A DNA stretch of 64,000 nt, from contig NZ_JH594606.1 of the NCBI RefSeq assembly GCF_000243235.1, positions 1,513,304 through 1,577,303 of the forward strand, read 5' to 3'. Below are positions 29,808 through 62,502 of the stretch, piece after piece. The position numbers were made by a program, and so were the translations under genes. The notes under the pieces were generated by a model, which had not been told where the DNA came from, ran no database searches, and saw nothing but the letters and a program-made list of their open reading frames with translations. Every line of letters starts with the position of its first letter. The first letter of the stretch is position 1. Source of the stretch: Gillisia limnaea DSM 15749. GTDB lineage: Bacteria > Bacteroidota > Bacteroidia > Flavobacteriales > Flavobacteriaceae.

Positions 29808-30362
29808 ATGTCTACCAAATACAAAGCGACGGAGCCCGAAGGGGTATACTTTGTTACCATTACAGTGGTGGGGTGGATTGATGTTTTTACCCGGGAAAGT
29901 CAAAAAAAGGTACTGATTGAAAGTCTGAAATATTGCCAGAAAGAAAAAGGACTGGAGGTCTATGCGTATTGTATTATGACCAATCACATCCATATGATTT
30001 GTAAAGGGGCTGGAGAAATTGGCCTTGCGCAGATTATTCGTGACTTTAAAAAATTCACTTCCAAAAGGATCATAAACATCATCGAAGAGGAGCCGGAAAG
30101 TCGCAGAAAATGGATGCTTAATTACCTTGAAGACGTTTGCAAACACCTTAAAAGGGACCAGAAGTATAAAGTCTGGAAGGACGGGTACCACGCTGAAATT
30201 TTATATTCCCGAAAATTCCTTCTTCAAAAACTGCATTATATTCATAATAATCCGGTAAAAGCGAGAATTGTAGATAAGCCAGAACATTATCTTTTCAGTT
30301 CAGCCAGGAATTATGCAGGTTTGGATGAGGAGCTGGAAGTTGTTTTGATCGATCTTTTTTAA
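29808..30362 (+). CDS. REP-associated tyrosine transposase (RAYT, Y1/HUH family)
   Basis: 184 residues, close to the usual RAYT size. The HUH metal site is H60-I-H62 in AYCIMTNHIHMI. The probable nucleophile Tyr144 lies in LHYIHNNPVKARIV, and the WKDGYHAE segment precedes it. The ends YKATEPEGVYFVTITVVGW and PEHYLFSSARNYAG are typical. RAYTs nick single-stranded REP hairpins and are thought to spread them. REP repeats stand on both sides (29670-29785, 30370-30520), and further copies at 33383-33535 show spread in trans. It is a single-copy domesticated-type gene with no IS ends of its own. Confidence 0.92.
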   Translation: MSTKYKATEPEGVYFVTITVVGWIDVFTRESQKKVLIESLKYCQKEKGLEVYAYCIMTNHIHMICKGAGEIGLAQIIRDFKKFTSKRIINIIEEEPESRRKWMLNYLEDVCKHLKRDQKYKVWKDGYHAEILYSRKFLLQKLHYIHNNPVKARIVDKPEHYLFSSARNYAGLDEELEVVLIDLF

Positions 30363-59028: not shown

Positions 59029-62000
59029 TTATCCAACGATATTTACAATTTTTCCCGGAACTATGATCACCTTTTTAGGCGTTCTTCCTTCCAGTTGTTT
59101 TTGTGTTCTTTCATCTTCCATCACAGTTTTTTCGATCTCCTCTTTACCCATATCCAGGGGTAATTCCAAGGTAAACCTCATTTTCCCATTGAAGGAAACC
59201 GGGTATAATTTAACGCTTTCCACCAAATATTTTTCTTCATAAATAGGATAGGCCGCAGTACTAATAGATCCTGAATACCCGAGTTTTTCCCATAGCTCCT
59301 CTGCAATATGCGGCGCGTAGGGCGCTATTAAAACAGCCAATGGCTCCAGAATTTCCCGATTATCACATTTTTGAGCAGTAAGCTCATTCACACAGATCAT
59401 AAAAGTAGAAACCGAAGTATTAAAGCTGAAAGCCTCGATGTCTTCTGTTACTTTTTTAATGGTTTTATGCAGGGTTTTTTGAGAATCTGCCGAAGCTTTT
59501 TCATTTGAAACCTGAAAAGAAGAGTCTGCTCCTTCGGGGGAGTTAGAGGGGGAATGATACAGTTTCCATAATTTTTTCAAAAAACTATGCACTCCGGACA
59601 TTCCTGCGGTATTCCAGGGTTTCGCCTGTTCCAGAGGCCCAAGAAACATCTCGTACATTCGCAAGGTATCTGCCCCATATTGTTTACAGATCTCGTCCGG
59701 ATTTACCACATTGTACTTGGATTTGGACATTTTTTCGACTTCGCGATGAACAATATATTTGTCATTTTCCTTAAAAAATATAGCGTCTTTAAATTCTTGA
59801 TTTAAAGGGTGATTTTTAAAAGCTATAATATCTAATTCGTCTGATGCATTTACAAAATTAACATTAACATGAATTTTTTGGACTTCTAAACTAATACCGT
59901 TGAATATATATTTAATCGTCGGGAATTTTTTTGAAAGTTGTTTTTCAATTTCTGGAAAGTTCGATCCAATACTTAATTGGCCTTGGCCAAAATCACCTTC
60001 TGGAAACATTTTATTTCTTAGAAGCCTTTTAGGAACAAATATTTTATTATCATATTTCTGAATAAATTCCTCTATTTTAGTTTCTTGTTCTATCGAAAAA
60101 TGCAAATCATCAGACAAGGCAGATAGAGTTCTTGAAACGTTTATAAACCTTAATCTATATATAAAAGCGCTTGTCCCTAATATCATCCCTTGGTTAATCA
60201 GCTTTTTGAAGGGCTCTTCAACACTAACCATTTTACGGTCATAAAGGAATTTTGTCCAGAAACGGGAATACAACAAATGTCCTGTTGCGTGCTCGCTTCC
60301 ACCTATGTATAGATCGACATTTTCCCAGTATTTCTGGGCTTTTTCAGAAACAAATTCAGCGTCATTGTGGGCATCCATATACCGGAACCAGTACCAGGAA
60401 CTGCCTGCCCAACCCGGCATGGTATTCAATTCCAGGCCCCCTCCATCCCCAATGGGGGAACTTTCAAATTCCTCTTTGGAAACTACCTGTTTCTTTTCCT
60501 GGTCCCAATACCATTTTTCTGCTCTTCCCAAAGGTGGTTCCCCTTCTTCGGTTGGGAGGTATTTCTCAACCTCCGGCAAACGCAATGGCAAATGCTCTTT
60601 AGCTATCATTTGCGGTAAGCCATTTACATAATACACAGGAAATGGTTCTCCCCAATAGCGCTGTCTCGAAAACACTGCATCTCGTAATCTATAATTTGTT
60701 TTCCCTTTTCCCAGACCAATTTTCTCAAGTTCTTCGATAGCCTTATTCAGCGCCTCTTTGTAGGGTAGTCCTGTTAGAAAATTGGAATCGGTGATAACGG
60801 TTCCCTCTTTTCCTGAAAAAGCTTCTTCAGAAATATCTATTCCTTCAAAAATGTTCGGAATAGGTAATCCAAAATGCTTGGCAAAATCATAATCCCGCTG
60901 ATCTCCACAAGGAACTGACATTACTGCACCCGTACCATAACCTGCCAATACATAATCCCCGATCCAAACAGGGATTTTCTCTCTACTTAACGGGTGAAGA
61001 GCATAAGCACCGGTAAATACTCCGGAAATTGTTTTAACATCGGCCATACGCTCACGTTCGCTACGCTTAGCCGATTTTTCAATATAGGCCGAAACTGCCT
61101 CTTTTTGTTCTGAGGTAGTTATTTCCTTAACCAATTCATGCTCGGGAGCAAGCGTCATAAAGCTAACTCCAAAAATAGTATCTGGTCTGGTGGTAAAAAC
61201 CTTAATCCCCCTAACCCCCGAAGGGGGAATTACATCTTGCTGTAATTGAATTTTAATTTGTTCAAGGACAAAATCAATATTACCTATAATTTCCTCATTT
61301 CTAAACCTAACCACTCTAAAGCCTAAATTATTAATAATTTTAGTTCGTTCCTCATCCTTTTCTTGCTGGGAGTCGTGTATATTTCCGTCGACTTCAATTA
61401 CCAATTTCTTAGACAAACAAACAAAATCTACTATAAAATCACCTATTAAATGTTGTTGTCTGAATTTGTAGCCTAATTTTTTAGATATTAAACAATCCCA
61501 CAGCAACTTTTCGGCTTGTGTAGAATTACTTCTCATTTGTTTTGCTTTATCAATCAATAAATGAGAATTATTACCACCCGTCATATAACCATATTTCTGT
61601 TTTCCTTCCCCTTCGGGGAAGGCTAGGATGGGGAATTTCACCAAAGCCCCTTTAGATCTTCCAATCCAGTTAGTTTGGGAATCTTTAAGGGGTTGTGGCC
61701 AGTCGATGCTTGAAAGACCATCCAATAAACGTTGTGCATAGGCAGAAATACGCATGCTCCACTGGGTCATTTTTTTGCGAACCACAGGAAAACCGCCACG
61801 TTCTGAAACGCCGTTCACGATCTCATCGTTTGCCAGTACGGTTCCCAGTTGCGGGCACCAGTTCACTTCGGTTTCAGCTAAATAGGTAAGTCTGTATTGT
61901 AATAATATTTTTTGTTGTTCTTCTGATGAAAAAAAATTCCACTCTTCTGCAAGAAAGGCGATAATATCATCATCACAAGCCGCTTTTACCCTGGTATTCC

Positions 62001-62502
62001 CTTCCGCAGAAAAAATCTTTATCAATTCGGAGATCGGGCGGGCTTTATCGGCCTTCACATCATACCATGATTCAAAAAGTTCAATAAAGATCCACTGTGT
62101 CCATTTATAATAATTTGGATCACTGGTGCGTACCTGCCTGCTCCAATCGAATGAAAACCCGATTTGGTCCAGTTGCTCCCGGTATCGTTTTATATTTTCT
62201 TCGGTAGTTAGTGCCGGATGCTGCCCGGTTTGAATGGCATATTGCTCTGCCGGCAATCCAAAACTATCATAACCTTGTGGATGCAGCACATTAAAACCCT
62301 GATGCCTTTTGTATCGTGCATAAATATCACTCGCGATATATCCCAGGGGATGCCCAACGTGCAACCCGGCCCCAGAAGGATATGGAAACATATCCAGCAC
62401 ATAAAATTTCTCTTTTGAGGAATTATTGGATGCCTTAAAAGTTTGATTTTTGGCCCAGTATTCCTGCCATTTGGTTTCAATCTCGTTAAAATGGTAACTC
62501 AT
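59029..62502 (-). CDS. leuS: Leucyl-tRNA synthetase with an in-frame DUF559 nuclease domain in the editing region
   Basis: 1157 residues, about 200 more than usual for Bacteroidota. Class I marks: PYPSGAGLHVGHPLGY (HVGH at 48-51) and EKMSKSKYNVVNPDE (near 924). The CP1 editing domain keeps TTRPDTIFGVSFM and GTGAVMSVPCGDQRD. The domain is interrupted after WIGRSKGALVKFPI: residues about 288-431 form a DUF559 domain. IKVFTTRPDT then continues. A second lineage-specific expansion (about 785-875) precedes the KMSKS segment, and a 12-residue insert SPSNSPEGADSS lies near 982-993. No stop or frameshift interrupts the frame. Confidence 0.95.
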   Translation of the reverse strand: MSYHFNEIETKWQEYWAKNQTFKASNNSSKEKFYVLDMFPYPSGAGLHVGHPLGYIASDIYARYKRHQGFNVLHPQGYDSFGLPAEQYAIQTGQHPALTTEENIKRYREQLDQIGFSFDWSRQVRTSDPNYYKWTQWIFIELFESWYDVKADKARPISELIKIFSAEGNTRVKAACDDDIIAFLAEEWNFFSSEEQQKILLQYRLTYLAETEVNWCPQLGTVLANDEIVNGVSERGGFPVVRKKMTQWSMRISAYAQRLLDGLSSIDWPQPLKDSQTNWIGRSKGALVKFPILAFPEGEGKQKYGYMTGGNNSHLLIDKAKQMRSNSTQAEKLLWDCLISKKLGYKFRQQHLIGDFIVDFVCLSKKLVIEVDGNIHDSQQEKDEERTKIINNLGFRVVRFRNEEIIGNIDFVLEQIKIQLQQDVIPPSGVRGIKVFTTRPDTIFGVSFMTLAPEHELVKEITTSEQKEAVSAYIEKSAKRSERERMADVKTISGVFTGAYALHPLSREKIPVWIGDYVLAGYGTGAVMSVPCGDQRDYDFAKHFGLPIPNIFEGIDISEEAFSGKEGTVITDSNFLTGLPYKEALNKAIEELEKIGLGKGKTNYRLRDAVFSRQRYWGEPFPVYYVNGLPQMIAKEHLPLRLPEVEKYLPTEEGEPPLGRAEKWYWDQEKKQVVSKEEFESSPIGDGGGLELNTMPGWAGSSWYWFRYMDAHNDAEFVSEKAQKYWENVDLYIGGSEHATGHLLYSRFWTKFLYDRKMVSVEEPFKKLINQGMILGTSAFIYRLRFINVSRTLSALSDDLHFSIEQETKIEEFIQKYDNKIFVPKRLLRNKMFPEGDFGQGQLSIGSNFPEIEKQLSKKFPTIKYIFNGISLEVQKIHVNVNFVNASDELDIIAFKNHPLNQEFKDAIFFKENDKYIVHREVEKMSKSKYNVVNPDEICKQYGADTLRMYEMFLGPLEQAKPWNTAGMSGVHSFLKKLWKLYHSPSNSPEGADSSFQVSNEKASADSQKTLHKTIKKVTEDIEAFSFNTSVSTFMICVNELTAQKCDNREILEPLAVLIAPYAPHIAEELWEKLGYSGSISTAAYPIYEEKYLVESVKLYPVSFNGKMRFTLELPLDMGKEEIEKTVMEDERTQKQLEGRTPKKVIIVPGKIVNIVG
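59529..59552. repeat. Palindrome copy near the leuS C-terminal coding region
   Basis: CTCC-TTC-GGGGGAG, then TTAGAGGGGG on the plus strand. It is translated (minus strand) as SPSNSPEGAD inside LeuRS, where relatives have a short loop. It is the same motif as at 61207 and 61604, and has the same orientation as the copy at 61604. Confidence 0.7.
61207..61227. repeat. Right-hand (C-terminal) border palindrome of the DUF559 insert
   Basis: On the plus strand CCCCCTAA followed by CCCCC-GAA-GGGGG. On the minus (coding) strand it is CCCCC-TTC-GGGGG-TTAGGGGG and codes for the IPPSGVRG stretch just before IKVFTTRPDT. It is inverted with respect to the copy at 61604-61633. Confidence 0.75.
61604..61633. 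repeat. Left-hand (N-terminal) border palindrome of the DUF559 insert
   Basis: CCTTCCCC-TTC-GGGGAAGG (8-bp perfect arms), then CTAGGATGGGG on the plus strand. Translated on the minus strand as PILAFPEGEGK directly after the conserved ALVKF of LeuRS. Confidence 0.75.

Follow-up and report, generated by a model that had tools for sequence, protein, structure and literature searches.

A DUF559 nuclease gene between inverted palindromic repeats lies in frame within leuS of Gillisia limnaea and within other enzyme genes of Bacteroidota

The usual view is that essential genes tolerate selfish elements only if these are spliced out, as introns and inteins are; inteins favor active-site motifs. Rickettsia palindromic elements (RPEs) are not known to encode a nuclease or other enzyme. 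As described in the accessible text of PMC10969869, RPEs are short palindromic elements of about 150 bp that lie in frame in many protein genes. In the REP/REPIN-RAYT system (REPtron; RAYT, REP-associated tyrosine transposase), an enzyme gene is flanked by copies of a genome-wide palindrome, and some REPs (repetitive extragenic palindromic sequences) lie inside open reading frames (ORFs) (accessible text of PMC3733652). The homing endonuclease I-Bth0305I is described as binding DNA through extended regions and recognizing a target almost 60 bp long (accessible text of PMC3943268). Here we describe a DUF559 nuclease gene that lies in frame, between inverted copies of a palindromic repeat, inside leuS, the leucyl-tRNA synthetase (LeuRS) gene of Gillisia limnaea DSM 15749. 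The gene is located in a 64,000-nucleotide stretch of contig NZ_JH594606.1 (positions 1,513,304 to 1,577,303), which we call the window.

The leuS insert resembles inteins with a homing endonuclease in being an in-frame nuclease insert, patchily present in essential conserved genes that also have empty alleles, but it differs in its lack of a Hint or splicing domain, in its palindromic borders, and in using variable loops as sites. Like an RPE, it is a palindromic element in frame in coding sequence, but it is about 430 bp long with a conserved nuclease, compared with about 150 bp for an RPE (accessible text of PMC10969869). Like the enzyme gene of a REPtron, the DUF559 gene is flanked by copies of a genome-wide palindrome, but DUF559 replaces the Y1/HUH transposase and the element sits in frame inside essential genes; the GTAG/CGTC tag of REPs was not seen by eye at the DUF559 element. 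The nuclease fold is similar to those of I-Bth0305I (EDxHD) and Vsr, but, in contrast to I-Bth0305I, the insert consists only of a domain of approximately 100 amino acids (aa) and a short extension. Free-standing DUF559 genes of Bacteroidota belong to the same family and have palindromes on both sides in 49 of 70 cases, but they fall mostly in other clades (27/34), have borders of mixed polarity, and lie outside any host frame. Traits of homing genes were found, in that the nuclease fold is common to known homing endonucleases (I-Bth0305I, 3r3p), presence is patchy with empty alleles (141 of 195 leuS junctions contiguous; 20 label changes), and inserts are exchanged horizontally (allele swaps). 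No description of such an element was found in the literature searched, in which preprints were scarcely covered, subscription journals lay mostly outside, and DUF559-mentioning papers were judged by title and start of abstract, or in the accessible text of PMC3733652, PMC10969869, PMC3943268, and PMC10448857. We file it as a new kind of element built from known parts, with an unproven drive mechanism, and consider it probable that a nuclease element bordered by palindromes enters genes in frame, is not spliced, and is spread by an exchange resembling homing.

ORF reading gave leuS as a single open frame on the minus strand, and a Pfam scan of the whole LeuRS located DUF559 (PF04480) at aa 318 to 420 (E value 5e-34; 116.9 bits against a cut-off of 20.6), followed by the editing-domain match, which starts at aa 432. 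The D, E-x-D, and H residues of DUF559 are present in the insert, and no Hint or intein model was among the Pfam matches up to an E value of 1. Both ends of the insert are imperfect inverted copies of one motif, and an exact 11-mer, CCCCTTCGGGG/CCCCGAAGGGG, is common to both hairpins. An earlier sequence-only reading of the window had described the complete in-frame DUF559 domain in a frame of 1157 codons, its catalytic residues, the ends as one motif in opposite orientation, and the lack of Hint motifs, all of which hold. The place of insertion was read from a sequence alignment to Thermus thermophilus LeuRS (1H3N), which replaced an AlphaFold model of the whole LeuRS that was not usable (mean predicted local distance difference test score [pLDDT], 52). 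Four aligned LeuRS stretches, including the HVGH and KMSKS signature stretches, are all present. We place the insert in a short loop where the editing domain begins, because the alignment stops at residue 236 of 1H3N and resumes at residue 243, continuing afterwards. The parts of the locus are as follows.

59029-62502, minus strand: host gene leuS (leucyl-tRNA synthetase) with the insert, 1157 codons
61206-61633, minus strand: whole inserted element, palindrome to palindrome, in frame, within a loop of 18 to 19 aa in the empty-site relatives read
61604-61633, minus strand: N-terminal-side border, with the C-run outside and hairpin CCTTCCCCGAAGGGGAAGG inside
61555-61593, minus strand: N-terminal extension of the nuclease, YGYMTGGNNSHLL; related forms stand ahead of many gene-internal DUF559 domains, by eye
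61252-61554, minus strand: DUF559 nuclease domain (PD-(D/E)XK/Vsr-like), catalytic residues intact
61206-61227, minus strand: C-terminal-side border, with hairpin CCCCCTTCGGGGG inside and the G-run outside

Among the 30 best-scoring empty leuS genes, the loop is 18 aa long in 29 and 19 aa in one, and it is 18 aa in G111, a genome of the same genus. The sequence-only reading had raised the matter of an undisturbed second leuS; an empty-junction query of the G. limnaea genome found none, the best of its two matches being the 43-111 piece of the window leuS itself. Because no other leuS was found in the genome, LeuRS must tolerate the DUF559 module. We infer that the LeuRS-DUF559 fusion stays unprocessed.

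A structural model of the nuclease domain alone was usable (pLDDT 83), and its nearest solved structures were NGO0050 (3hrl) and I-Bth0305I (3r3p), the latter with E values of 2e-5 by fold and 1.3e-7 by profile; Vsr matched more weakly. No Pfam domain besides DUF559 was found in the insert. Toxoplasma mitoribosome proteins were among the weak fold matches of the domain (E values of 0.006 and worse). The catalytic D, E-x-D, and H residues are kept in all 98 gene-internal and fusion rows of a set that excludes two decayed leuS inserts and a frameshifted one, and the ratio of nonsynonymous to synonymous substitution rates (dN/dS) was 0.05 to 0.24 in 13 of 23 pairs, synonymous sites being saturated in the remaining 10. 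Because the catalytic residues are intact and dN/dS is low, the nuclease is kept rather than passively carried. We conclude, from these alignments, that the DUF559 nuclease is under purifying selection. Frame changes were seen in two gene-internal copies, L120 (G112 leuS) and L308 (G200 metH); in the latter, the reading frame shifts close to the palindromes at each end of the insert, reflecting either a homopolymer sequencing error or real slippage.

The border palindromes belong to a repeat found throughout the genome. The window has 4 copies of the pattern CCCCNWNGGGG where 0.41 would be expected, a count reached in 0 of 100 shuffles, and the whole genome (G000) has 48 against 7 for the reversed pattern; the exact 13-mer CCCCCGAAGGGGG has 21 genome copies on both strands against 0 for a control. 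Solo copies in the window are given below, without strand.

60437-60458: solo related palindrome in leuS, reads SPIGDGGG; by eye at the DUF559 insert place of other genomes (L299, L328, L335, L336)
59529-59552: solo palindrome, in frame in the leuS C-terminal region, reads SPSNSPEGADSS
909-930: solo palindrome elsewhere in the window, CCCCCTTAGGGGGCTGGGGGG

Under one fixed hairpin rule, 66 of 86 gene-internal inserts (duplicates removed) have a hairpin on both sides and 82 have one on at least one side; the count covers family rows above 100 bits and named rows, with two short-flank entries skipped and decayed inserts not included. Random window pairs in the same loci had hairpins on both sides in 0.9% of 1780 draws. 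Hairpins on both sides also occur at 11 of 15 fusions and, among the 70 free-standing genes, at the 49 mentioned above. Of the 66 gene-internal inserts, 49 have both runs pointing outward, and polarity is mixed at the 49 free-standing genes (13 inward and 8 outward on both sides). Among 30 leuS inserts, with 12 distant leuS rows left out of these and the distance correlations below, the correlation of end sequence was stronger with DUF559 (left, 0.38, P = 0.001; right, 0.21, P = 0.01) than with host leuS (0.16 and 0.08). Because the ends track DUF559 more than the host, they seem to travel with the nuclease, and the palindromes seem to belong to the element. In the 199 genomes of the family, which are not independent samples, CCCCNWNGGGG exceeded its reversed control in 13 of 25 genomes with gene-internal DUF559 (the frameshifted leuS, the two decayed leuS cases, and a HisD fusion included) against 4 of 133 with none or a weak match (P = 2e-9). 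G111, which has no DUF559, has 3 copies against 5 reversed.

Alternatively, the palindromes could be the mobile part, moved by a RAYT-type (Y1) transposase, with DUF559 as cargo caught between two of them. This would be consistent with the 11 Y1_Tnp matches in the G. limnaea genome and with the same leuS loop in split relatives that lack DUF559, where other short in-frame inserts were found in 29 of 29 readable cases (loops of 22 to 57 aa; 30 of the 37 such genes were given, and L210 was not located). By eye, several of these short inserts, from L185 to L214, look like other palindromic repeats (IASEAKQS, SERHSELVSES, NDTLSAVEGS). Because of the short inserts and of the solo palindromes at two more leuS places, we regard the loop itself as a hot or a tolerant spot. 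Five Y1 loci, one of them chosen from seven IS200-like copies of equal score, are, however, flanked by other palindromes, by eye, and a C-run/G-run hairpin scan of these five found none; RAYT was thus rejected as the enzyme for the C-run/G-run repeat. Moreover, a pure passenger should decay, yet all 98 rows keep their catalytic residues, a single nuclease clade recurs in many hosts, and palindrome excess accompanies gene-internal DUF559. We regard the cargo explanation as unlikely. Within the window, a RAYT-like Y1 transposase match (29883-30092; L224) lies between copies of a different palindrome, GCGGATTGCAAATCCGC.

DUF559 inserts were found in many unrelated genes. Two DUF559 matches occur in the G. 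limnaea genome (3.97 Mb, 99.99% complete), both gene-internal and both with inverted palindromes; the second lies in frame in metH, where it separates the two B12-binding Pfam domains, and its palindromes are built like those of the leuS insert. Within the family, 89 of 199 genomes have a match, and the in-frame internal cases number 17 in leuS (1 frameshifted and 2 decayed without visible palindromes), 5 in metH, and 5 in recG. Terminal fusions in the family involve HemD (6, of which 3 were scanned by Pfam), a pyridoxal phosphate (PLP)-dependent enzyme (1), and HisD (1, C-terminal). A set of 80 named loci added IleRS, ValRS, RecJ, a UvrD-like helicase, acetyl-CoA synthetase (Acs), DegT-type aminotransferases, MazG, CoA-transferase III, two more places in MetH, and a second place in LeuRS, as well as N-terminal fusions to IspF, Gmk, a SpoU methylase, and an MG2 protein; these hosts were confirmed with Pfam by example, and the name IleRS was assigned within class I synthetases by eye. 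A scan of the phylum with an insert profile matched 169 of 395 genomes, and by manual count at least 48 matches in at least 42 genomes sit in open frames of at least 300 aa. Among the phylum-scan loci, four additional hosts were confirmed by Pfam: HsdR (type I restriction), an Eco57I-type methylase, methylmalonyl-CoA mutase, and an M23 peptidase. In total, 15 protein families with an internal DUF559 insert were counted manually. The expectation that DUF559 would be found inside unrelated proteins was upheld, in hosts such as MetH, RecG, and RecJ, and most of the gene-internal domains lie between such palindromes.

The host list also bears on whether DUF559 has been domesticated, giving LeuRS, MetH, or RecG a selected regulatory or antiphage nuclease activity. 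Purifying selection on the domain is in keeping with such a role, as are the hosts that act on DNA (RecG, RecJ, the UvrD-like helicase, HsdR, and the Eco57I-type methylase). On the other hand, aminoacyl-tRNA synthetases, MetH, Acs, MazG, and aminotransferases have no common theme, the insert is missing from most relatives, and the bordering repeats are the mark of an element. We consider domestication very unlikely.

Two side observations concern other copies. L259, a LeuRS with a DUF559 insert, lies on a contig assigned to another phylum, Candidatus Paceibacterota, and is possibly misbinned. In G073 (L087), two free-standing DUF559 genes with identical proteins lie approximately 1.4 kb apart. 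Carriage by phages or plasmids was rejected, as no sign of the lineage appeared among 2 phage matches of at most 37% identity and 39 plasmid records below 60% (best listed, 51%).

Phylogenetic analysis joined the inserts. In a tree of 104 DUF559 rows from the family, all gene-internal inserts and the HisD fusion form one clade of 28 (support, 99/93), and 69 free-standing genes, the HemD fusions, and the PLP-enzyme fusion lie outside it. A wider tree was built from 137 chosen rows. All gene-internal rows in it fall into a clade of 105 (100/97), which also includes terminal fusions and 7 of the 34 free-standing rows, the other 27 lying elsewhere. The 137 rows leave out the frameshifted L120, the degenerate L121 and L126, the PLP-enzyme fusion L116, L022, L276, the phylum-scan loci, many free-standing copies, and the apparent repeat genomes L077 (=L269), L226 (=L167), L227 (=L166), L229 (=L013), and L230 (=L005). 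Set A1 comprises 16 of the 25 insert proteins listed. Jumps between hosts and sites are seen on this tree, as IleRS inserts fall in two places and the leuS insert L247 groups with UvrD-like inserts (100/93). We conclude that, in these trees, the gene-internal inserts form one common nuclease clade.

Empty sites are common among relatives, as the sequence-only reading had expected. leuS was found in 195 of the 199 family genomes, and its junction is contiguous, hence empty, in 141 and split in 54, of which 17 have DUF559. For metH and recG, most junctions among those listed are contiguous, and in G111 both metH and leuS are empty. On a leuS host tree of 43 filled, 31 empty, and 30 rows with another short insert, in which empty rows were sampled from the family only and rows from outside the family are all filled, there are 20 changes of insert label, 12 of them forced by supported branches. 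The closest filled and unfilled pair, L253 and L187, has leuS genes 95% identical, L187 carrying another short insert.

Within the genus of the window, insert and host histories conflict. The host genes group L165 with L170 (96) and L167 with L168 (87, Shimodaira-Hasegawa-like approximate likelihood ratio test [SH-aLRT]), whereas in the insert tree L165 pairs with L168 (100/99), nested in a lineage of Aequorivita/Leeuwenhoekiella (99/92), and L166, L167, and L170 form a separate group (100/95). The leuS flanks of L167 and L168 are 0.90/0.95 identical and their DUF559 inserts 0.60; for L165 and L170, the values are 0.85/0.95 for leuS versus 0.57 for the insert. By eye, the L170 insert looks like a mosaic, its left end like L165/L168 and the rest like L166/L167. 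At third codon positions, L165 and L168 are identical at 109 of 130 sites in the insert versus 342 of 509 in the flanks (P = 1.5e-4), and by this measure the shared insert is younger than its flanks. Because the flanks of L167 and L168 are 90 to 95% identical with inserts of only 60% identity, and because insert and host trees conflict, we conclude that the inserts move. This evidence points to exchange of insert alleles between species.

Several observations weigh against a mobile, palindrome-bordered element. For L166 and L167, which have the same insert type, third-position identity was 104 of 134 versus 344 of 498 in the flanks, an age difference that is not significant (P = 0.055). Flank co-conversion was not seen in L165/L168, the one informative pair with a young exchange, as third-position identity in the 50 codons beside the insert did not rise (0.52 downstream, 0.67 upstream). 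The mobility proposed by the sequence-only reading thus stands as to exchange between species, from the conflict of the trees, and lacks flank co-conversion in that pair. No clear target-site duplication was found in the printed borders, which were inspected by eye only. Twenty of the 86 gene-internal cases have no detected hairpin on one or both sides, and L121 (G113) and L126 (G002) carry leuS inserts at the same site, in frame, with a decayed DUF559 and no palindromes by eye; such copies would seem to be at a late stage, either dying or domesticated. Where DUF559 is solely free-standing or of the HemD type, genomes have no excess of the CCCCNWNGGGG palindrome as a group (4 of 41; rank test, P = 0.65). 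Within the genus there is no clear link between palindrome and DUF559, as G204 has 1 copy versus 0 and G202 has 3 versus 2 despite their inserts, and G208 has a count of 26 versus 13 and yet no gene-internal DUF559. The sample, moreover, is one genome per species.

Signs of vertical descent also count on that side. Inserts are largely grouped by host gene and site in the 137-row tree (recG, 100/95; metH mostly), and distances between DUF559 domains are correlated with those between their leuS hosts (0.28, P = 0.004), such that the history of the leuS insert looks vertical in part. Both would be expected if each host gene had received one ancient in-frame insertion, inherited vertically with many losses and no longer mobile. 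That explanation, which we hold to be very unlikely, conflicts with the 20 label changes (12 forced), the host-incongruent alleles in the genus of the window, the L165/L168 insert that is younger than its flanks, and the empty metH and leuS of G111. It is already disfavored by the allele swaps, unless these are misassembly.

Starting from what is established, namely the anatomy, the unrelated hosts, the single clade, the catalytic residues under selection, the empty alleles, the allele exchange, and the link with amplified palindromes, homing-like spread of the element might proceed as follows. The small element consists of a DUF559 nuclease gene with a copy of the genome-wide palindromic repeat at each end, the two copies in opposite orientation, and it sits in frame in host coding sequence, at loops that tolerate extra sequence. 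With no stop and no splicing domain, it would be translated as a module of the host enzyme. Because there is no splicing, in-frame insertion into tolerant loops alone would survive in indispensable genes, and this fits the host list. The nuclease may cut or nick the empty allele, and perhaps palindromes too, after which repair or strand transfer may copy the filled allele in, as in homing. An essential host gene would shield the element, as precise deletion alone would be tolerated. The palindromes may be the recognition site or a substrate of the same enzyme, and the palindrome excess in the genome would be explained because that enzyme may recognize or process them. We infer that the spread is driven by the nuclease itself. 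A broader version, in which DUF559 is the mobilizing enzyme of its own palindromic repeats, by a nuclease-driven route distinct from RAYT/HUH transposition, and one lineage, specialized for essential proteins, enters coding sequence in frame, is expressed as a host-enzyme domain, homes itself, and seeds solo palindromes in trans, is a possibility that we hold only tentatively.

A nuclease element that is apparently unspliced persists in aminoacyl-tRNA synthetases, MetH, RecG, and further proteins, and related bacteria have empty alleles. Because such alleles exist, both spread and cost are directly testable. If the reading is true, it would give a role to DUF559, a family of unknown function, and a non-RAYT candidate for moving bacterial palindromic repeats. 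Likewise, the host sites would show, as a catalogue supplied by nature, which protein loops can take up a folded domain of approximately 130 residues, and Bacteroidota enzyme-DUF559 fusions would be element insertions rather than new domain architectures.

One further part of leuS (59750-60230) was considered as a second insert of this kind and rejected as a normally variable region. It lies ahead of the KMSKS motif of LeuRS and varies strongly in length, from 83 to 173 aa, motif to motif, among the relatives read.
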